Shown here piece after piece: positions 5,323-32,036 of a DNA stretch of 32,036 nucleotides. How positions within the stretch are numbered: position 1 is the stretch's first letter; the number at the start of each line of letters is the position of its first letter. The DNA comes from Candidatus Geothermincola primus (lineage in GTDB: Bacteria; Actinomycetota; Geothermincolia; Geothermincolales; Geothermincolaceae), in contig JACVIX010000022.1 in the NCBI GenBank assembly GCA_015711725.1, positions 1 to 32,036 of the forward strand. The letters are read 5' to 3'. The notes beneath the pieces were generated by a model. That model was not told the origin of the DNA. It saw only the letters and a list, made by a program, of their open reading frames with translations, and did not search any database. The position numbers were made by a program, and so were the translations under genes.

Positions 5323-6402
5323 ATGGATGATTTAAAAGCCAGATATTCCGGCGCCCGGGTGTTAATCACCGGGGGGATGGGCTTCATCGGAAGCAACCTC
5401 GCTCATCGCTTGCTAGAGCTAGGGGCCGACATAACCATCGTGGACAGTTGTGTTGAGGGCCAGGGGGCCAACCCCTTCAATGTCGCCGATATAAAGGACC
5501 AAATAAAGCTGTATATTTATGATTTAAGGGATCGTGGCCCTATGGCAAGCGTGGTAAAAGATAAGGAGTATATTTTTAACCTTGCCGCTTTCACCAGTCA
5601 TATCCGCTCTTATGAGAACCCGCTTGAGGATCTGGAGGTCAACTGTAGAAGCCATCTAATCTTCCTGGAGACCTTGCGCAAACACAATCCTGGAGCCAAA
5701 GTAGTCTACACCGGTTCGAGATGTCAGTATGGCAGGGCTCAATATCTGCCAATCGATGAAGAGCATCCCTTCAACGTAGTGGATATCAACGGCGCCCATA
5801 AGGCAGCAGTGGAATATTATCATCGACTGCACGAATTGCATTTTGGAATGAGGTGTCTCCGGGTACGCCTGGCCAATATCTTCGGCCCCAGACACCAGAT
5901 GAACCACTCCAAACAGGGTTTTCTCAACTGGTTCATCAGGGTCGCCATACTCCAGGATACCATCCAGGTATTCGGAGATGGCTCTCAACTCAGAGATTTC
6001 CTCTACGTGGACGATGCGGTGGAAGCGATTCTGCTTCTGGCGGCGCGGGATGAGTGCTACGGGGAGGCTTTCAACCTGGGCTCGGGGAAACCATTGTCAG
6101 TCTTGGAATCGGCTCGGAAAGTTGCCGAGCTCACCGGATGCTCCTATTGCCTCACCCCCTTCCCCAGCGAGTATGCCGCGGTTGAGGTAGGGGACCTTTA
6201 TCTGGATATTGCAAAGATACAGAGAGCTATCCCCTGGGAACCCCAGGTGGACTTCGACGAAGGCTTAGCTCGCACCGTGGATTTCTACCGGCGTTTCGGG
6301 GAACACTACTGGGAATGCGAGGGGTTTGAATCGTTCGACCGTGCGGCGGCTGGATCTTCTGGAAACCCGACTCATTTACCCTACGATGATAAGGTTCGTT
6401 GA
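5323..6402 (+). CDS. NAD-dependent epimerase/dehydratase (extended SDR), atypical YxxxK
   Basis: This 359-aa extended short-chain dehydrogenase probably modifies a nucleotide sugar for the operon. The Rossmann motif GGMGFIG (residues 17-23) binds NAD, NLAAF follows near 86-90, and the serine region is TGSR (130-133). The usual catalytic Tyr-x-x-x-Lys reads Asn156-Gly-Ala-His-Lys160 (DINGAHK), so the tyrosine is replaced; from memory an epimerase-like subgroup with a D-x-NG-x-x-K pattern exists. LRDFLYVDDAVEA and FNLGSG are family-typical. The ATG is 1 nt after the previous stop, with AAGGAG 5 nt upstream. The C-terminal tail after about residue 330 is low in similarity to the family and overlaps the next gene by 17 nt. 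The substrate cannot be told from sequence. Confidence 0.88.
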   Translation: MDDLKARYSGARVLITGGMGFIGSNLAHRLLELGADITIVDSCVEGQGANPFNVADIKDQIKLYIYDLRDRGPMASVVKDKEYIFNLAAFTSHIRSYENPLEDLEVNCRSHLIFLETLRKHNPGAKVVYTGSRCQYGRAQYLPIDEEHPFNVVDINGAHKAAVEYYHRLHELHFGMRCLRVRLANIFGPRHQMNHSKQGFLNWFIRVAILQDTIQVFGDGSQLRDFLYVDDAVEAILLLAARDECYGEAFNLGSGKPLSVLESARKVAELTGCSYCLTPFPSEYAAVEVGDLYLDIAKIQRAIPWEPQVDFDEGLARTVDFYRRFGEHYWECEGFESFDRAAAGSSGNPTHLPYDDKVR

Positions 6403-7486
6403 TTTTTCCCGCCAACACCATCCCATTTCTTCCCAACTCAAAGAGGCTTTTAACCGCGTTTTAACTAAAGGGAGATACGTGTTGGGAGAAGAGGTCCGGT
6501 TGTTCGAGGAGGAGTTCGCCTCCTACTGCCAATGCGGTTATGCGGTTGGGGTGGCCTCGGGTACCGACGCCATCCTGATTGCGCTGAAAGCGCTGGGCGT
6601 GGGGGAGGGGGACGAGGTGCTAGTTCCCGCCTTCACCGCTCCTCCTACGGTGATGGCGGTGGTCTTAAGCGGAGCCAGACCGGTTCTGGTGGATATTGAC
6701 CAGAAAGCCTTCTCCATGGAGCCCGCCATCGCTGGGGATTCCATTACGCCCCGAACCGCGGCGATGGTGCCAGTTCATCTTTATGGGCTCCCCGCCCCCA
6801 TGGAGGAGCTTTGTAGGCTAGCGCAGAGGGTGCAAGTGCCGGTGGTGGAAGATGCATGCCAAGCTCATGGCGCCAAGCTTGGCTCCAAGTCTATAGGCGC
6901 TTGGGGCAAAGTGGGCTGCTTTAGTTTCTACCCCACCAAGAACCTAGGGGCTCTGGGAGACGGCGGGATGATAGTCACCGATGATCCGGAGCTGGCTGGG
7001 GAGATGACCAAGATCAGGGATTATGGCCGGGAGGGAAGGGATATATTCTCCAAAATCGGATTCAACAGCAGGCTGGATGAGCTGCAGGCGGCTTTTTTAA
7101 GGGTGAAGCTCGGGGTCCTCGAGAAGGGGAACGCGAGGCGGCGCGAGCTGGCGAAACGATACATCCAGGGGCTGGGAGATCTGCCGTTGCGCATACCCCA
7201 AGCGGAACCCGAGGCGCAGCCGGCTTACCACCTTTTCGTGGTGGCCACCCGGCGCAGGGACGAGCTCAGCGCCTATCTGGCCTCACGGAATATAGAGACC
7301 TTGGTGCACTATCCCTACCCTATCCATCTACAGCCGGCCTTCGCTTTCCTCGGCTATAAGAAGGGGGATTTCCCCAATGCGGAAAGGGCGGCGGCGGAGG
7401 TGCTCTCCCTGCCGCTATACCCGGAGCTGGAGGATCAAGAGGTGGAGGAGGTAATATCCGCTATCAGAGATTTTTACAAACAGTGA
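6386..7486 (+). CDS. DegT/DnrJ/EryC1/StrS-family PLP sugar aminotransferase
   Basis: This 366-aa PLP enzyme belongs to the DegT family, which transfers an amino group to a keto nucleotide sugar. Visible motifs are the N-terminal MIRFVDFSRQ, SGTDAI (58-63), PAFTAPPT, VEDACQAHGA (with Asp156) and the PLP lysine in FYPTKNLGALGDGG (Lys185). The C-terminal NAERAAAEVLSLPLYPEL is also characteristic. ATG at 6386 is chosen because it gives the canonical N-terminus; it overlaps the epimerase stop by 17 nt and has no clear ribosome binding site, which suggests translational coupling. An in-frame TTG at 6326 is possible but poor. With the upstream epimerase it likely makes an amino-deoxy sugar for the GT2/YfhO protein. 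Confidence 0.92.
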   Translation: MIRFVDFSRQHHPISSQLKEAFNRVLTKGRYVLGEEVRLFEEEFASYCQCGYAVGVASGTDAILIALKALGVGEGDEVLVPAFTAPPTVMAVVLSGARPVLVDIDQKAFSMEPAIAGDSITPRTAAMVPVHLYGLPAPMEELCRLAQRVQVPVVEDACQAHGAKLGSKSIGAWGKVGCFSFYPTKNLGALGDGGMIVTDDPELAGEMTKIRDYGREGRDIFSKIGFNSRLDELQAAFLRVKLGVLEKGNARRRELAKRYIQGLGDLPLRIPQAEPEAQPAYHLFVVATRRRDELSAYLASRNIETLVHYPYPIHLQPAFAFLGYKKGDFPNAERAAAEVLSLPLYPELEDQEVEEVISAIRDFYKQ

Positions 7487-8753: not shown

Positions 8754-10874
8754 TCAATCTCCTTTCAGGGGGATAGTGAAACTAAAAGTAGAGCCCTTAC
8801 CCAGCTCACTCTCCACCCAAATCCTGCCGCCATGGGCCTCCACAATGCCTTTACATATGACCAGCCCCAGCCCTAATCCACCACTATTGCGGGTGGTGTT
8901 GCTGTCCACTTGATGAAATTTGGTGAAAAGCTTCTCCTGGTCTTTTTTCGCGATGCCAGGACCGTTGTCGGAAACGGAGACGATTATGTCTCTCTTCCCT
9001 GGTTCCATGGAGGCGGCGACCTTCACCTTCCCCCCTTCGGGGGTGAACTTGATAGCGTTGCTTAAGAGATTTTCAATCACCTGATGAATGCGCCACACAT
9101 CCACCTTCACCGAGGGCAGACCTTCCTGGACCTCGCTGGTGAGATCTATCTTTTTTCTAAATGCCTCGCTTTCGAATTCAGCCAGTGCGGAGTGGACGAT
9201 CTCGCCTATGGGGGCGTACCATTTCTCCCCTACCATCCTTCCTTCCTCAAGGCGGGTCACGTCCAGGAGGTCGTTGATGATCTTGGTCATCTGGTCCGCC
9301 CGTGCGTTGATGATCTTCAACTTGCTTAATTGGAAGTCGTCAAGCTCGCCCAGTTCCCCGGATAAGAACGCCTCGGCGTAGCCTTTGATAAGGGAAAGGG
9401 GGGTGCGTAGCTCGTGGGAGGTGATGGCGATGAAATCGGATTTCATCTTGTCGAATACCGATAATTCCTCATATGCCTGCTCCAGATCCTCCGTCCGCTT
9501 CTTGAGAGCCTCTTCTAGATTTTTTCTCTCGGTGATGTCGTGAGCGATGGCCACGATTCCCGCGAATTCGCCGTTTTTAATCAAGGGAGCAGAACTAATC
9601 TCCACAGGTAAAAGGGAGCCATTGCTTTTCTTGAGCAGGGTCTCGAAGACCACTTTCTGCCCGCTCTTTCTTTTCTGTAACATCTCTTCCACCAACGGTA
9701 GCTCCTCGGGGGGCACGATATCTTTGGGCTGCAGGGAAAGGAATTGCTCCTCGCTCATCCCTAACATATCCAGCATGCGGTCGTTGCAGAAGACGAATCT
9801 GAAGTCGCGATCCATGGCGTAAAGGCCGTCATTTAGGCTATTAATCAAGAAATTCACGTAGTCGGAGGCCTCTACGAAGGCCCGCCTGAGTCGCATGTAC
9901 TTAGTGAAATCCTGGAGAACCAAAAGCGTCCCCCCAGACTCGCCCTCACTGGCATACATAGGAATAAGAGCCAGATTGAAGAGAGTCTCTTCCCGATCGA
10001 ATCTCGCAAGCAAAGCTTCCCGGCGATATGGCTCCGAGGTGGCCTTGATTTCCTTGAAACCCTCTTGGATCACGGTGGATACCTCCTGGGGGAGCAAGGA
10101 AAGGATATTCTTCCCGGTCAGGTCTTTTTCCCCAGAAGGCGAAGCTTTTTCCATCCATTCCCGCATGCGTTGGTTGGCGTGGTGGACCCGTCCCTCTGGG
10201 TCCAAGAGCGCGGTGCCGATAGGATACCTCTCGCCCCCAATTATCTCCATATATCTATCTAGATAATATAGGAAAGGGTAGTTTTTAAGTATGGATTCGC
10301 TGGAGAAGCGAAGGAAGCAGATGGATCCCTCCACCGTCCCCTTGGAGTCCACCACCCTTTCGGCAAATACCTCCACGGGCAATAGCCCATTTTCCATCTT
10401 GACCAACGCTAGCTTTTCCGCTCGGCCTTCGCTCATAGCGGAGCGGCAAATATCTTCCCAACCCTCGAATGGGGGTAGGAAAATTCTAGTCCCGGCTTCG
10501 GGTGCGAGGGTTCCCCCGTCCCTGGAAGCGAATGATTCGCGGAATAGGGCTCGCATTGAGGGACTCACGAAAGTTATACGGAGATGGGGGTCGGTGGCGA
10601 AGAACCCCCCGCCTCCAGACTGGAGTTGTCTCTCTTCCCCTGTGAATTTGAATTCCTCTGCCGAAGCGGGTTCCAGTCCCTTTCCTTTCCCATTCTTCCT
10701 GGGGAGATAGAGCAGCGGGGCTAGAAGGGGTAAGCTGAGGACGGCAAAGACCAAAGCCGCGATGCGTACATTCAATACCAAAAAGAGGATAACCAGGAAC
10801 CATGCGAGAAGCGCCAGCCCCTGAACCAGGAAGCGAGTTTGCGTATCAGTGAGCGACTTTTTGCCGGTAAACAT
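8754..10874 (-). CDS. Multi-PAS membrane sensor histidine kinase
   Basis: This 706-aa kinase starts with two transmembrane helices (about residues 17-55). Three PAS-like regions follow (about 85-195, 215-325 and 340-455); the last ends in the PAC-like [20 protein letters not shown] coiled coil leads to HisKA ([18 protein letters not shown], near 475) and an intact HATPase_c with N box ([14 protein letters not shown]), G1 ([17 protein letters not shown]) and G2 ([19 protein letters not shown]). It should autophosphorylate on the H-box histidine and probably passes phosphate to the receiver encoded upstream. The ATG has AAGGAG about 8 nt upstream, the site lying inside the last codons of the preceding gene, whose stop is 1 nt away. 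It is the last gene of a five-gene minus-strand operon. Confidence 0.95.
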
Positions 10875-10875
10875 G

Positions 10876-11238
10876 TTATCTCTCCTTAGGTTTATAAAGG
10901 GTGGAACGCAGCTCTGGCCACACCCATTTCCAGTATCTCACCGAGGCGTAGAAAGCCATGCTTGAACCGATACACATAGGCAGAAAGAGCAGAAGGGCTT
11001 TCATTTTATAGACGGTGAGCTCGGGTGGATCGGGCATGCCCCAGACTTTGGCGAAATAAAGGGGTATTCCCACCAGGACCGGAATGCAAAATATGAGCGC
11101 CCCTACCCAATAGAGGAGATAGAATTTAGGCATCTGTAACGCCTCGCCCATGCGCTTTCCGAGGGAGGAGAAGATCAGAAACATGGTTCCCGTAGCTAAG
11201 GGCGATAAAGCACTCAGGATGGCGGCCAAGTACATCAT
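10876..11238 (-). CDS. Small membrane protein of the KaiC-kinase operon (unknown)
   Basis: This protein of about 120 aa has three likely transmembrane segments (starting [17 protein letters not shown], then [19 protein letters not shown] and [18 protein letters not shown]) and a basic C-terminus. I do not recognise a family. ATG at 11238 overlaps the stop of the preceding gene as ATGA; an upstream in-frame start at 11262 would add 8 residues. It ends 1 nt before the kinase gene. Tight coupling suggests it works with the kinase or with the other small membrane protein, for example as a sensing partner, but that is inference. Confidence 0.75.
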
Positions 11239-11540
11239 CTGCCCATCATCACCCCGTAACATTTATAGCTGACCAGCAGGAGCAGGCAGCTGGCGACGCC
11301 CATGGGCAGGCCGTACCAGGCTTTATCTAGGTCCAGGTTGGGGGAAAGCGCCACCGGGAAAGAGGATGCGAACATGATGGCGAAAAAGACGGGCACCAGA
11401 AAGGGATAGGTACCCCTCTCGAATTTAAGCTCGGCTAATCTGCTGACCCCATAGAAATAATATAGCATTGCGAGGAGCGCCAACATGTTGTAGAAGAACA
11501 AGAAGAGCACTAGAATTCGCCACCATGTCAAAGCGTCCAA
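11235..11540 (-). CDS. Small three-helix membrane protein (unknown)
   Basis: This protein of about 101 aa has three hydrophobic segments (WWRILVLFLFFYNMLALLAML, PFLVPVFFAIMFASSFPVA and a C-terminal PMGVASCLLLLVSYKCYG). No family is recognised. TTG at 11540 is preferred because AAGGAG lies 8 nt upstream; the GTG at 11549 would sit directly on the ribosome binding site. Its stop overlaps the next gene by 4 nt. It lies between the receiver and kinase genes, with 70 nt separating it from the receiver, so it is presumably part of the same sensory unit. Confidence 0.75.
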   Translation of the reverse strand: MDALTWWRILVLFLFFYNMLALLAMLYYFYGVSRLAELKFERGTYPFLVPVFFAIMFASSFPVALSPNLDLDKAWYGLPMGVASCLLLLVSYKCYGVMMGR

Positions 11541-11610
11541 TTCCCCCACTCCTTCGAGATGTCAGCGTAAAATGAGATAATCGATATGATTCAGGTAATA
11601 GGCATTGCTT

Positions 11611-12003
11611 TCATTTGTCGGAAGCAGCTTCTAGCATCCTTTTGACCTCATCCAGAAGTTCTTTCTTGCTGAATGGCTTGGTGATGTAACCATCTGCCTT
11701 CATCACTGAGAGGCCGATCATACGGTCGATATTCTGCGTCCTTGCCGTTATGAAGGCGACGGGGATACCCTTTGTCTGGGGATCGTTCTTTAGTCGACGG
11801 AACACCTCCCAGCCGTCTATCTTCGGCATCATGATATCCAAGAGAATGAGGTCAGGTTTGTCGCGAAAGGTCGACTCCAAGGCTTCTTCTCCGGAGAACG
11901 CGCTAATAGTCTCATATCCGGCGTTGGTCAGGAATAGTTGGATCAGCTCCACCATTTCGCGATCGTCGTCGACGACCAGGACCTTCAAGGCCAAGCTTAT
12001 CAC
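11611..12003 (-). CDS. Stand-alone response-regulator receiver domain
   Basis: This 130-aa CheY-like receiver has no output domain. The acidic pair is in VVDDDRE (about 11-14), the phosphoacceptor is Asp56 (LILLDIMMPK), the conserved Thr is Thr86 (FITAR) and the Lys is Lys109 (ITKPF). It should be phosphorylated by the operon's histidine kinase and act by protein contact. The GTG start overlaps the upstream ATPase stop as GTGA, with GGAGGAGGG immediately upstream. Translational coupling to the KaiC-like ATPase suggests the ATPase is its partner or target. Confidence 0.93.
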   Translation of the reverse strand: MISLALKVLVVDDDREMVELIQLFLTNAGYETISAFSGEEALESTFRDKPDLILLDIMMPKIDGWEVFRRLKNDPQTKGIPVAFITARTQNIDRMIGLSVMKADGYITKPFSKKELLDEVKRMLEAASDK

Positions 12004-12806
12004 TCCCTCCTCCGCTTCCCACCCTCCTTCTTGCCGAAGACCTCCATGAATACCTCGACCTCTTTCTTTTTCGGCAAGCCGGAGAGCACTCCTTCCCTGT
12101 CTAGGAATGGCTTTCCCACGATCAGACCGCGGTCGGTGATGCGGTACTCGCGGATGGAGCGGTCGTGATCGCTGGACCTTTGTTTGAGAACCAGTATAGC
12201 CCTGCTTATCGAGGAATCCACTTCCACGTAGCTCAGCTGGATGACCGTGTCCACAATGAAAGGTATGCCCAGCTCTATGGCGTCAGAAGCACCTAAAATC
12301 TCCCTTTCCTCCTGGGTTATCAAAGTGGTTAAGTCGTGTCGCAACAGTCCGTTAACAAAGGTATATGCCACCTCCCTCAGCTCGTGGGGATTCTGGGAAA
12401 CCCTCTCGAAGTGGGATATGGAATCGATGAGAATGCGGCGTATGCCCCCTTCATAGACAAGGGTATCCAGCAGCCCACCTTCTTTCTCCACCTGAGAGAT
12501 AATGATTTCCGGGGAGGTGAAGATGGTACGCAGCTTTCCCTCGCTTTCCATCTTTTGCAGGTCTATGCCGATGGATTGTGCGTCTCTCCTCAATTTTTTA
12601 GGAAAGTGTTCGAAGGTTATTATCGCCCCAGGTTCATCATTTTCAAGCACTCCATTTGCGATGAACTCCAGGCCTATGCAGGTCTTTCCCGTGCCCGGCG
12701 CCCCTTTTACCAGAGTGGTGGAGCCCCTCATGAGCCCACCGCCCAGCATCTCGTCTAGGCCTTCTATTCCCGTGGAGACTCTCTCTATCAAACCTTGCTC
12801 GTTCAT
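12000..12806 (-). CDS. Single-domain KaiC/RAD55-like RecA-fold ATPase
   Basis: This protein of about 268 aa has one KaiC-like RecA domain. It opens with VSTGIEGLDEMLGGG, followed by Walker A GAPGTGKT (about 35-42), a Walker B-like RRILIDSIS, and a C-terminal tail rich in Lys, Glu and Arg. Clock KaiC has two such domains; this is one, as in the many KaiC-like proteins outside cyanobacteria. ATG at 12806 is chosen for the domain boundary, with a weak AGGGAAG just upstream. The frame is open to an ATG at 12893, but that adds 29 unlike residues and lacks a ribosome binding site. It is first in the operon and overlaps the receiver gene, so a phospho-signal probably modulates its ATPase or a partner. 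Confidence 0.88.
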   Translation of the reverse strand: MNEQGLIERVSTGIEGLDEMLGGGLMRGSTTLVKGAPGTGKTCIGLEFIANGVLENDEPGAIITFEHFPKKLRRDAQSIGIDLQKMESEGKLRTIFTSPEIIISQVEKEGGLLDTLVYEGGIRRILIDSISHFERVSQNPHELREVAYTFVNGLLRHDLTTLITQEEREILGASDAIELGIPFIVDTVIQLSYVEVDSSISRAILVLKQRSSDHDRSIREYRITDRGLIVGKPFLDREGVLSGLPKKKEVEVFMEVFGKKEGGKRRRE

Positions 12807-13445
12807 CTTCCCTGATTCGATCAATCCAAGCGAAACGCAACTTTGCGAACAAGCTTTCATCGCTGTCCTCAACCATCCATTTAATATTACCATTTTTTAT
12901 AGGACGAACTAAAGCGGGTGTTGTTTTTCAGGATGTTAGGGTGGTCCTTCAAACTTTTTCAACCCGGAAAGCGCCTGCTGAAACCGCAAAGCATCTTAGT
13001 TTTGGTCGCACAATTTTTATGGAATGGCCAGCGCCTATAATAAAGAGTCAGAGTTTTTCGAATTGAAAATATAAAAAGATATTATAAGGTAGTGAGAAGA
13101 TCACCCCACTTGCCTACCGAAAAAGAAACGCTTAATACATCACCCCACTTGCCTACCGAAAAAGAAACGCTTAATACATCACCCCACTTGCCTACCGAAA
13201 AAGAAACGCTTAATACATCACCCCACTTGCCTACCGAAAAAGAAACGCTTAATACATCACCCCACTTGCCTGCGCAACGAAGAGACTATATTTGGAGTGA
13301 AGAGCCCCCCAAGTTTCTACCTGTAAAACCGGACATATGAGTAGGACTGCGGTAAAGTCAGGGGATGAAATTTTGGAAAATATGCCGAGATCTTTATACT
13401 GCCGGGCGGGCGCTGAGACCTGTGAGAGGGTTGAAAGTCATGTGA
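12807..13445. other. Non-coding gap with a 39-bp minisatellite
   Basis: This stretch between the KaiC-like gene (minus) and the SRP RNA (plus) holds the 39-bp tandem array at 13102-13272 and otherwise AT-rich sequence. No tRNA or riboswitch was recognised. An open frame through the array exists because 39 is a multiple of three, but it has only a poor ribosome binding site. Confidence 0.6.
13102..13272. repeat. 39-bp tandem repeat, 4.4 copies
   Basis: Four identical units start at 13102, 13141, 13180 and 13219, and a partial fifth copy starts at 13258. There are no spacers, so this is a minisatellite and not a CRISPR array. In the plus frame from GTG 13092 each unit would encode the 13 residues SPHLPTEKETLNT, but expression is doubtful. 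Confidence 0.97.
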
Positions 13446-13458: not shown

Positions 13459-13728
13459 GATCGTGCTAGGCGGGGAGCTAGCGGTGCCCTGAACCCGCAA
13501 TCCGCTACAGCGGGGCTGAATTCCCAACCGAGGCTCTCTGGCTTTGGGAAAGCGTTGTGGCAAGCGGTGTTGAAGGCTGGGTCCTGCGCAACAAGAATTT
13601 GTGAACCCCGTCAGGTCCGGAAGGAAGCAGCGGTAAGCAAACCCTCTTGTGTGCCGCAGATTAACCTGGCTGGAGCAGGCTACCACGATGGCGCCTGGAA
13701 CCAGGAGTCGAAGGCGGGTGCACGATCA
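13459..13728 (+). ncRNA. ffs: Large bacterial SRP RNA (Alu + S domain)
   Basis: This is the RNA scaffold of the signal recognition particle, which with Ffh targets membrane and secreted proteins. The invariant GTCAGGTCCGGAAGGAAGC of the Ffh-binding S-domain hairpin is at 13610-13628. The 5' part carries the Alu-domain signature (GGGGAGCTAGCGGTGCCCTG near 13473-13492), and GGGTCCTGCGCAA precedes the S domain, as in the Bacillus scRNA. The ends GATCGTGC (13459-13466) and GCACGATC (near 13720-13727) pair to close the molecule, giving about 270 nt. Location just upstream of dnaX is common in Gram-positive bacteria. Ends are approximate. Confidence 0.95.
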
Positions 13729-23087: not shown

Positions 23088-24434
23088 ATGATTTGCCCAA
23101 CGTGTGGGTGGGAGAATCCTGATTACGCCACCTTTTGCGAGATATGCAAGAAGGATTTGCGAAAGGAATTGGAGAGGGGGGCATCTGGGGAAGCCATTGC
23201 GCCACGGATCGCTTCACGGGTGAGCAATCAACATCGGAAAGAGAAGAAGACTCAAGCGCTGAAAAGGACCTCTTATATACGGGAGGCTAACCAGGCTCCT
23301 TCCGCGCCGATACATCTGGAGGTGGAGAGAATCACTCTCGGAGGAGACACAGGCGCGTCATCGCCGACTCCGTTTCCATCGGTTGAGCCAGTCTATCCAG
23401 TCCAGGAGGTCGCTTCCGCGGCGAAAGAGGCGGAGGTGCAGCTTCCGGGAACCGAGGCTTTCAAAGCCATGGGAGCCGGAGAGGAGGGCCAACACCCGTC
23501 TACTTCAATCGGTCCTACGGCGGTCATGCCCCCTCTCCATCAACCCCAGGGCTCGGGTAGATCGGAGAAGGCCGTTTGCCCGCAATGTTATGCGGAGAAT
23601 CCACCGCAGAATCTCTTTTGTCAGGAATGTGGTTCGCCTATGCCCACCGTAACGCCCGGGGCTACCGGCGCTGCCACAATGCGAAGCGGGGCGACCTTTT
23701 ATTCGCGAGGGACAGGGACCGCCCAAGAGCTTTCCAGGCGAGGGGAGATGGCGCCTTCGGCGAGGGAAGCAACCAGGGCAATGGTCCCTGTGGAAGGTGT
23801 GGAAGGAAGAGAGAGGAAAAAGACATTCTCTTTCGCCGATGTATTGGCAATCTTTTCCCTGGTGACTTTGGGCTTGGCGCTATCCCCGATTTTTAAATGG
23901 AGAAAGGGCATGAACGTCTCCATCTTCGGCTATCAGGGGGTAAATCGTCCTGGAGGCCCAGGAATCTTGCCCTATGCGGGATGGGAATGGCTGACCCTTG
24001 GGGTTGTGACGGCTCTGGCCTTAGCCCTGACACTGGCCTTCCTTTTAATTCGCGTGGGCAGGGGCAATATGTTTATTCTGGCGGGATGGATCGCTCTATT
24101 CCCCTTCATCTATCTGGTTGCTCAAAGCCTGCTTCCTTTGAGGACTCAAGGGATGGAGTTGGAAAAAGCGGTTGGCTTCGGCAAACTCTTCTTTGGCGGA
24201 GGCGCCTATCCCTATTCCCTGGAACCAACCGTCTGGCTGTTAGTGGGTGGAGGGGTCCTTCTTCTACTGGCGGGGCTGTTATCTCCCCCTCGAAGATGGC
24301 TGAGGCTGGTAAGCCTTATATCTTTTGGAGCGACCGTGGGAGGATTGGCGATCTTTTGCGCCATGGCCTATAACTGGAACATTTTCATCCCGGAAGCGGT
24401 AAAACTCCTGGGAAAGCCCTCAATCTTCCTGTGA
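23088..24434 (+). CDS. Double zinc-ribbon membrane protein (unknown)
   Basis: This 448-aa protein has two zinc ribbons of identical spacing C-x2-C-x10-C-x2-C (Cys3, Cys6, Cys17, Cys20 and Cys164, Cys167, Cys178, Cys181), separated by a long Pro/Ala/Glu-rich disordered region. About five transmembrane segments fill residues 248-440 (for example ADVLAIFSLVTLGLALSPIF and PTVWLLVGGGVLLLLAGLL). No enzymatic motif is visible. ATG at 23088 has GGAGG 6 nt upstream. The zinc-binding head, disordered linker and membrane tail echo the two upstream CPBP proteins. Its last 20 codons are duplicated downstream by a 151-bp tandem repeat. Confidence 0.85.
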   Translation: MICPTCGWENPDYATFCEICKKDLRKELERGASGEAIAPRIASRVSNQHRKEKKTQALKRTSYIREANQAPSAPIHLEVERITLGGDTGASSPTPFPSVEPVYPVQEVASAAKEAEVQLPGTEAFKAMGAGEEGQHPSTSIGPTAVMPPLHQPQGSGRSEKAVCPQCYAENPPQNLFCQECGSPMPTVTPGATGAATMRSGATFYSRGTGTAQELSRRGEMAPSAREATRAMVPVEGVEGRERKKTFSFADVLAIFSLVTLGLALSPIFKWRKGMNVSIFGYQGVNRPGGPGILPYAGWEWLTLGVVTALALALTLAFLLIRVGRGNMFILAGWIALFPFIYLVAQSLLPLRTQGMELEKAVGFGKLFFGGGAYPYSLEPTVWLLVGGGVLLLLAGLLSPPRRWLRLVSLISFGATVGGLAIFCAMAYNWNIFIPEAVKLLGKPSIFL

Positions 24435-24672
24435 AAGAAATTGTCTTTGCCCGAGCGAGCATGTCTTGAAGAAGAGATAAGTGGGCGCTGACCTCCCCAT
24501 ATCACCAAAATTCCTCGTTCGCAACTGGAACATTTTCATCCCGGAAGCGGTAAAACTCCTGGGAAAGCCCTCAATCATCCTGTGAAAGAAATTGTCTTTG
24601 CCCAAGCGAGTATGTCTTGAAGAAGAGACAAGTGGGCGCTGACCTCCCCATATCACCAAAATTCCTCGTTCG
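24372..24672. repeat. 151-bp tandem duplication of a gene's 3' end
   Basis: Copy 1 (24372-24522) includes the last 20 codons and stop of the zinc-ribbon gene; copy 2 (24523-24672) repeats them and the downstream spacer with about four mismatches. Copy 2 carries a silent gene tail (NWNIFIPEAVKLLGKPSIIL-stop, one residue changed) with no start codon. The rest of the gap up to 24748 shows no gene. Confidence 0.95.
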
Positions 24673-31428: not shown

Positions 31429-32036
31429 TCGGTCCTCCCTTGTTACGGCAGGGGAAGCGAAAAACGATGAAGCTATTTGGTGGCGCGTCCGGCGAATCGA
31501 TTAACCTTTCCTATTGCCACCCATCTTAGAAGATACGATGGGGCGCAGCTACTCGCGTGTATCTCCATATCGCCTAAATCTCGGAGAAATTGCGAACGGA
31601 GAGACTGAAGCATCTGGAAAGGGAAGAGTTAAATCCCGCAATCAGTTCTTCCATGACTTTGGAATGAAATATGGCGCCATATGGCGCCATCGCGTTGGCG
31701 TTGAGGCATACGCTTTGGGGGTTTTCCTCTCTTATGAGTTTGCCGCACGGATAGAGAAGCTTCATCCGCTCCCCAAACGCTTGCATAAAACCGTTTATCT
31801 CAGTATGTCAAATCCCGGGTGATGCTATGAGTCGCTTCGGTATAGGGAGCTAGAAAACTGATATTTTCGAAGAGATAGGTTCTCTTAGAGAAGCTTCATC
31901 CGCGCTCCCCAAACGCTTGCATAAAACCGTTTATCTCAGTATGTCAAATCCCGGGTGATGCTATGAGTCGCTTCGGTATAGGGAGCTAGAAAACTGATAT
32001 TTTCGAAGAGATAGGTCCTCTGGATGTTTCGAATGG
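31429..32036. other. Non-coding right edge with a palindrome and a tandem duplication
   Basis: No gene is supported; a 102-codon frame from TTG 31514 lacks a ribosome binding site and runs into the duplicated segment. The decamer palindrome ATGGCGCCAT occurs twice in tandem at 31671-31690. The 134/136-bp duplication fills 31752-32021. Confidence 0.55.
31752..32021. repeat. 134/136-bp tandem duplication
   Basis: Copy 1 is 31752-31885 and copy 2 is 31886-32021. They differ by a 2-bp insertion (CCGCT versus CCGCGCT) and one T/C change near the end. The sequence continues past the window, so more copies or a gene may follow. Confidence 0.95.

Follow-up and report, generated by a model that had tools for sequence, protein, structure and literature searches.

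What does an ATPase of the KaiC family do when it is encoded together with a two-component system and two small membrane proteins? KaiC relatives are common outside Cyanobacteria, and the question is raised here by an operon of Candidatus Geothermincola primus (a little-explored group of Actinomycetota), located in a 32,036-nucleotide stretch of DNA referred to as the window (positions 1 to 32,036 of contig JACVIX010000022.1, assembly GCA_015711725.1). At 8754–12806, all on the minus strand, are five genes encoding a KaiC-family ATPase, a stand-alone receiver (RR), the membrane proteins M1 and M2, and a histidine kinase (HK). An original prediction, made from the sequence alone, had placed these five genes here, and their positions hold, with domains assigned by Pfam. 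The set is probably a membrane-linked signalling module, not a clock. G000 is the window's own genome; other numbers prefixed G, L and C denote comparison genomes, loci and contigs, respectively.

The five genes are co-inherited. In a class sample of 31 genomes, M2 occurs in 16, every one in the window's order, and all 16 order genomes examined closely show the arrangement ATPase–RR–M1–M2–HK, the conservation of which had been set as a check of the prediction. (At L017, in G017, the contig begins at RR, the ATPase lying on a separate contig, C59, at its end.) Profile searches of 396 genomes of the phylum found M1 in 18 and M2 in the identical 18, comprising 17 genomes of the window's order (with degenerate copies in G015) and one of another class, G206. 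Contig C23 of G206 carries the last 32 residues of the ATPase followed by M1, M2, HK and RR, in a neighbourhood (rpsF-ssb-rpsR) unlike that of the window, and its kinase has a Tll0287-HAMP sensor instead of PAS. Scoring 167 bits with the RR profile, where no other receiver of G000 or G206 exceeds 118.5 bits, the G206 RR belongs to the same distinct subfamily and is not just any receiver. The gene arrangement is far beyond chance, and because the set persists while gene order and kinase input change, joint function is the best explanation; the retention of all five genes in a new order argues strongly for it.

The features of the operon are as follows.

12000–12806, minus strand: ATPase, single-domain KaiC family, 268 residues (PF06745, 168.4 bits against a Pfam cut-off of 26.6 bits; ATG at 12806)
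12258–12263, minus strand: position in the ATPase matching KaiC S431/T432 (alignments and scan)
12027–12071, minus strand: conserved C-terminal tail of the ATPase, KKKEVEVFMEVFGKK, at the place of the KaiC A-loop and KaiA-binding peptide
11611–12003, minus strand: RR, stand-alone receiver, 130 residues (PF00072)
11235–11549, minus strand: M1, 104 residues, three hydrophobic helices; its family is unmatched in Pfam and NCBIfam
10876–11238, minus strand: M2, about 120 residues, three hydrophobic helices; likewise unmatched in Pfam and NCBIfam; the open reading frame can start at 11262
8754–10874, minus strand: HK, sensor histidine kinase, 706 residues (Pfam: PAS, HisKA, HATPase_c)
9522–9842, minus strand: best-defined PAS domain of HK, residues 345–451 (Pfam)
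9240–9446, minus strand: HisKA dimerisation and phospho-acceptor domain of HK, residues 477–545 (Pfam and alignment)
8763–9095, minus strand: HATPase_c catalytic domain of HK, residues 594–704 (Pfam)

The ATPase contains one PF06745 domain in its 268 residues, in agreement with the single KaiC domain predicted, and is 60–67% identical to its orthologues over the full length; its named close relatives come from metagenome-assembled genomes of Actinomycetota, including Candidatus Solincola (Candidatus Geothermincolaceae). Among solved structures, those of KaiC are nearest, and their CII half gives the best alignment. Retained are the Walker A motif GAPGTGKT, the catalytic glutamate E66, the Walker B aspartate D128 and the inter-subunit K-x-R motif (K208/R210), which in KaiC reaches into the neighbouring subunit; in the alignment of relatives, E66, D128, K208 and R210 are invariant and Walker A is nearly so. 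Owing to the retention of these elements, the protein is likely to be a working ATPase that assembles as a ring hexamer.

The likeness to the output of the Kai clock, which had also been proposed, finds no support beyond the fold. The residues equivalent to KaiC S431/T432 are P182-F183 in the window, Ser-Tyr in the relatives examined and Ser-Cys in the degenerate copy of G015; judged from the alignments, the dual phosphosite is absent. KaiB (PF07689) has no match in G000, as predicted, or in any genome of its order, and a KaiB-like (SasA-type) domain was not detected on HK, for which Pfam reports PAS, HisKA and HATPase_c only. With a single domain, no phosphosite pair and KaiB undetected, the ATPase is a member of the KaiC family but not of a Kai clock, a reading ruled out on these three counts. 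The protein scores 137 with the NCBIfam circ_KaiC equivalog (cut-off of 546); its assignment as the archaellum protein ArlH was rejected (equivalog score of 50 bits, cut-off of 215).

RR and HK carry the sequence hallmarks of a two-component pair. In RR, the phospho-acceptor D56, the acidic pair D12/D13, T86 and K109 are all invariant in the alignment, and no output domain is attached, consistent with the prediction of a receiver lacking a DNA-binding output. HK begins with a hydrophobic segment at about residues 12–60, followed by the PAS region, HisKA and HATPase_c; the phospho-acceptor H487, N602 and the glycine-rich boxes are invariant. Phosphotransfer from HK to RR is predicted. RR is 77–82% identical to its relatives, above RecR (69%), LysC (75%) and Asd (69%), and CheY of the same genomes reaches 87%; such conservation would fit receivers that, like CheY, work by protein contact.

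M1 and M2 are each modelled by AlphaFold2 as three helices (pLDDT of 84 and 79, respectively), and homology between the two was not detected. Loci of other Actinomycetota classes (L123, L126, L128, L129, L131, L133, L135 and L136) encode a related single-domain ATPase, then two small proteins with three transmembrane (TM) helices each (~103 and ~131 residues), then a protein of ~122 residues, here termed P121. These operons apparently represent a sister system in which P121 replaces HK and RR. P121 is likely, though not proven, to be a winged-helix protein: 7 of 14 members match HVO_A0114 (best E of 1.2e-4), and several helix-turn-helix models are matched weakly. In other related loci P121 precedes the ATPase, mostly with one membrane protein after it, or a single 6–7-TM protein follows the ATPase. 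The sister 3-TM proteins agree with M1 and M2 in position, size and helix number only. As the sister ATPases have a 3-TM pair without HK and RR, and as G206 swaps the sensor and keeps M1 and M2, M1 and M2 look like companions of the ATPase, with HK and RR seemingly one exchangeable partner; the recurring pattern is an ATPase and 3-TM proteins, joined either by HK/RR or by a winged-helix-like protein. The original prediction had missed both this apparent attachment of M1 and M2 to the ATPase rather than the kinase and the likely DNA-binding (winged-helix) partner of the sister systems.

Further KaiC-like genes occur in related genomes. In L083–L088, from Geothermincolaceae, a second KaiC-like ATPase (~54% identical to that of the window) is followed by P121 (121 residues), without membrane proteins. 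In the window's genome such a paralogue is represented by its end alone, at a contig edge (C32); P121 has no match in G000, and none follows the fragment at the end of C32. In L122, L125, L127, L130, L132 and L138 the ATPase has a C-terminal extension of ~200 residues, without a Pfam match in L125, the one member scanned; upstream are an ECF-type sigma factor-like gene and a one-TM protein (named by eye).

The sequence of the ATPase tail varies with partner class. ATPases of the HK/RR type share the consensus REGVLSGxPRKKEIDAFMEVFGKK, and nearest to this type is the tail of the G206 C23 ATPase, REGILTGSPRSMPARAFVEAFGKRR (also listed as ARAFVEAFGKRR). The tail of the paralogue (54% identical) is REGILSGNPYVTRRLKKAEEFFK, and that of the sister operons is HQGILTGFPSRxISGKTLLEEGLIRKKR. 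In the ATPase tree the partner classes form separate clades, the HK/RR clade with support of 96/92. The tail pattern thus tracks the tree, and the tail alone does not separate descent from partner choice.

We tentatively favour, at close to an even chance, a two-component system with the KaiC-family ATPase as its output, in which HK phosphorylates RR and phosphorylated RR acts on the membrane-linked ATPase. This direction is preferred because RR has no output domain, because RR is highly conserved, and because fusions and complexes of KaiC folds with receivers are known. The PAS kinase would sense a signal, autophosphorylate on H487 and pass the phosphate to D56 of the receiver. Phosphorylated RR would then dock on the ATPase, a putative ring hexamer held at the membrane by M1 and M2, possibly through the partner-specific C-terminal tail. 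Docking would alter the nucleotide or oligomer state of the ATPase, which would in turn act through M1 and M2 or another partner. Held with distinctly less confidence is a more far-reaching proposal: that a phosphorylated stand-alone receiver directly targets a bacterial KaiC-type ATPase at the membrane, and that several deep Actinomycetota lineages possess a Kai module unrelated to timekeeping, whose partner slots are interchangeable (receiver/kinase or winged helix) and are read by a C-terminal tail specific to each partner.

Several points weigh against the ATPase as output. We infer the hexamer, the link of the ATPase to the membrane, the contact between RR and the ATPase and the direction of signalling, and the phosphotransfer from HK to RR is likewise a prediction. 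Fold searches with the M1 and M2 models returned best E values of 6.6 and 1.0, giving no usable solved match. Compared by hhalign (E of 0.13–0.49, shallow alignments), the sister 3-TM pair shows no detectable homology to M1 and M2. The tail pattern may reflect descent, not partner choice. Finally, the winged-helix-like partner of the sister operons would place the ATPase upstream there, and the same may hold here.

The main rival builds on this last point and is somewhat unlikely. Here the ATPase is the input: M1 and M2 would respond to a signal at the membrane or envelope, the ATPase would integrate this signal with the ATP/ADP state and tune the kinase, as KaiC acts on SasA, and the receiver would act on an unlinked target. 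The sister operons read most simply as a membrane sensor passing through the ATPase to transcription, and the established path from KaiC through SasA to RpaA provides a precedent, but the KaiB-like domain was not detected on this kinase and the receiver has no linked second target gene. A motility target for the receiver is conceivable given the ancestral neighbours of the operon: in Geothermincolaceae and G015, a PG_binding-Amidase_3 gene comes after it, together with a cheW-cheY-cheB-cheA-cheC-cheD-asp23 cluster in convergent orientation. This link is lost in G000 and G014, where amidase and che cluster lie together on another contig, so the linkage to chemotaxis is ancestral and not a requirement. 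The amidase was not accepted as a sixth member of the system, as it stays with the che cluster in these two genomes. Two genes past P121 in a sister locus of G335, of another class, a peptidoglycan (PG)-binding protein (L136:1317–2273) is 46% identical over 162 residues to the amidase that follows HK in Geothermincolaceae.

Less probable again is that M1 and M2 together form a membrane sensor for the kinase, split over two proteins, with the ATPase as a separate partner of the receiver. Both genes adjoin that of the kinase, whose N terminus is hydrophobic too, and a 7-TM protein adjacent to a KaiC-like ATPase in L120 has a weak HisKA_4TM match (E of 0.0025, below the cut-off). However, in G206 M1 and M2 are kept beside the ATPase although the kinase comes with a Tll0287-HAMP sensor of its own, and in other classes 3-TM proteins adjoin ATPases that no kinase accompanies. 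The L120 protein (5766–6455) follows its ATPase; HisKA_4TM is an archaeal 4-TM region of histidine kinases.

A shared transcript without a shared pathway is very improbable: the genes for the signal recognition particle (SRP) RNA, dnaX, ybaB, recR and lysC upstream of the operon are all syntenic across the order, so that co-location could simply have been inherited at this spot, but G206 has the same five genes in a new order, in another class and neighbourhood, and M1 and M2 co-occur exactly. Least probable of all is a reduced timekeeper, with the ATPase cycle as a slow timer and HK and RR as its output, since the KaiC fold, the clock KaiCs as nearest solved homologues and the presence of HK and RR are set against a single domain, a phosphosite pair replaced by P-F or S-Y, and KaiB undetected in the order. 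A more clock-like set occurs in another order of the same class, where L093 (G002:C3) encodes a two-domain KaiC, two KaiB proteins and a histidine kinase.

The gene boundaries are refined by comparison with relatives. A longer ATPase reading frame starting at 12893 finds no support there and was rejected. Alignment favours TTG 11994 over GTG 12003 as the RR start, and TTG 11994 is likely the true one, leaving a gap of 5 nt to the ATPase gene (0 in most relatives); the 4-nt overlap originally described exists only with the GTG start. The overlap described between the M1 and M2 genes stands, with a revised size: with ATG 11238 as the most likely M2 start it would be a 4-nt ATGA, as in most relatives, not 28 nt. 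The HK gene starts 1 nt past the M2 stop, as first described. Scans for promoters and terminators gave no useful excess over shuffled expectation.

A gene for a bacterial large SRP RNA (13461–13725, 210.6 bits) lies upstream of dnaX, in divergent orientation to the operon. Between this gene and the operon start lies an array of a 39-bp unit (13100–13271, 4.4 copies, 100% identity). Near-perfect tandem arrays or duplications are also present at 1–99, 1160–1436, 24372–24672 and 31752–32021, with units of 41, 140, 151 and 136 bp, respectively, and 97–100% matches; several such arrays in one 32-kb window may reflect recent duplications or assembly effects.

Among the papers searched, none was found that deals with this operon or with KaiC from these lineages. 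Known systems resemble it in part. With the cyanobacterial KaiABC–SasA–RpaA system it shares a RecA-fold KaiC ATPase, a histidine kinase and a response regulator, together with a tail at the A-loop/KaiA-binding-peptide position; the window's ATPase differs in having one domain, no S431/T432 pair and no detected KaiB, its kinase in having no detected KaiB-like domain, its regulator in having no DNA-binding domain, and two membrane proteins are added. KaiA carries a pseudo-receiver domain. KaiC-like ATPases are reportedly presented as archaeal signalling hubs in a 2017 article by Makarova, Galperin and Koonin, cited in PMC5847659. The likeness to these hubs lies in KaiC-family ATPases tied to two-component parts, and linkage of this type is found here, the ATPase occurring with HK and RR in the order and G206 and with the winged-helix-like P121 in the sister operons. 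The window's set differs in being bacterial, in its separate receiver, in its two dedicated 3-TM proteins and in its fixed operon. KaiC–REC fusions occur in six genera of Methanosarcinaceae (PMC5847659), and in BcsE of Escherichia coli cellulose secretion a degenerate receiver accompanies a KaiC-fold domain, the small protein BcsF helping its membrane recruitment (PMC7439463). BcsE is one polypeptide with degenerate REC and GGDEF domains, and there is no kinase; the comparison is an analogy only.

The operon is thus built of ordinary parts in an uncommon and well-conserved combination, a variant of the proposed KaiC-hub type. The roles of KaiC outside Cyanobacteria are largely open, and the five-gene set offers a small, testable case of a KaiC ATPase that may be controlled by a phosphorylated receiver. 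It points to a way of coupling a KaiC domain to membrane proteins and interchangeable partners without KaiB or clock phosphorylation, and it is relevant to the recruitment of the clock KaiC from an ancestor in signalling.

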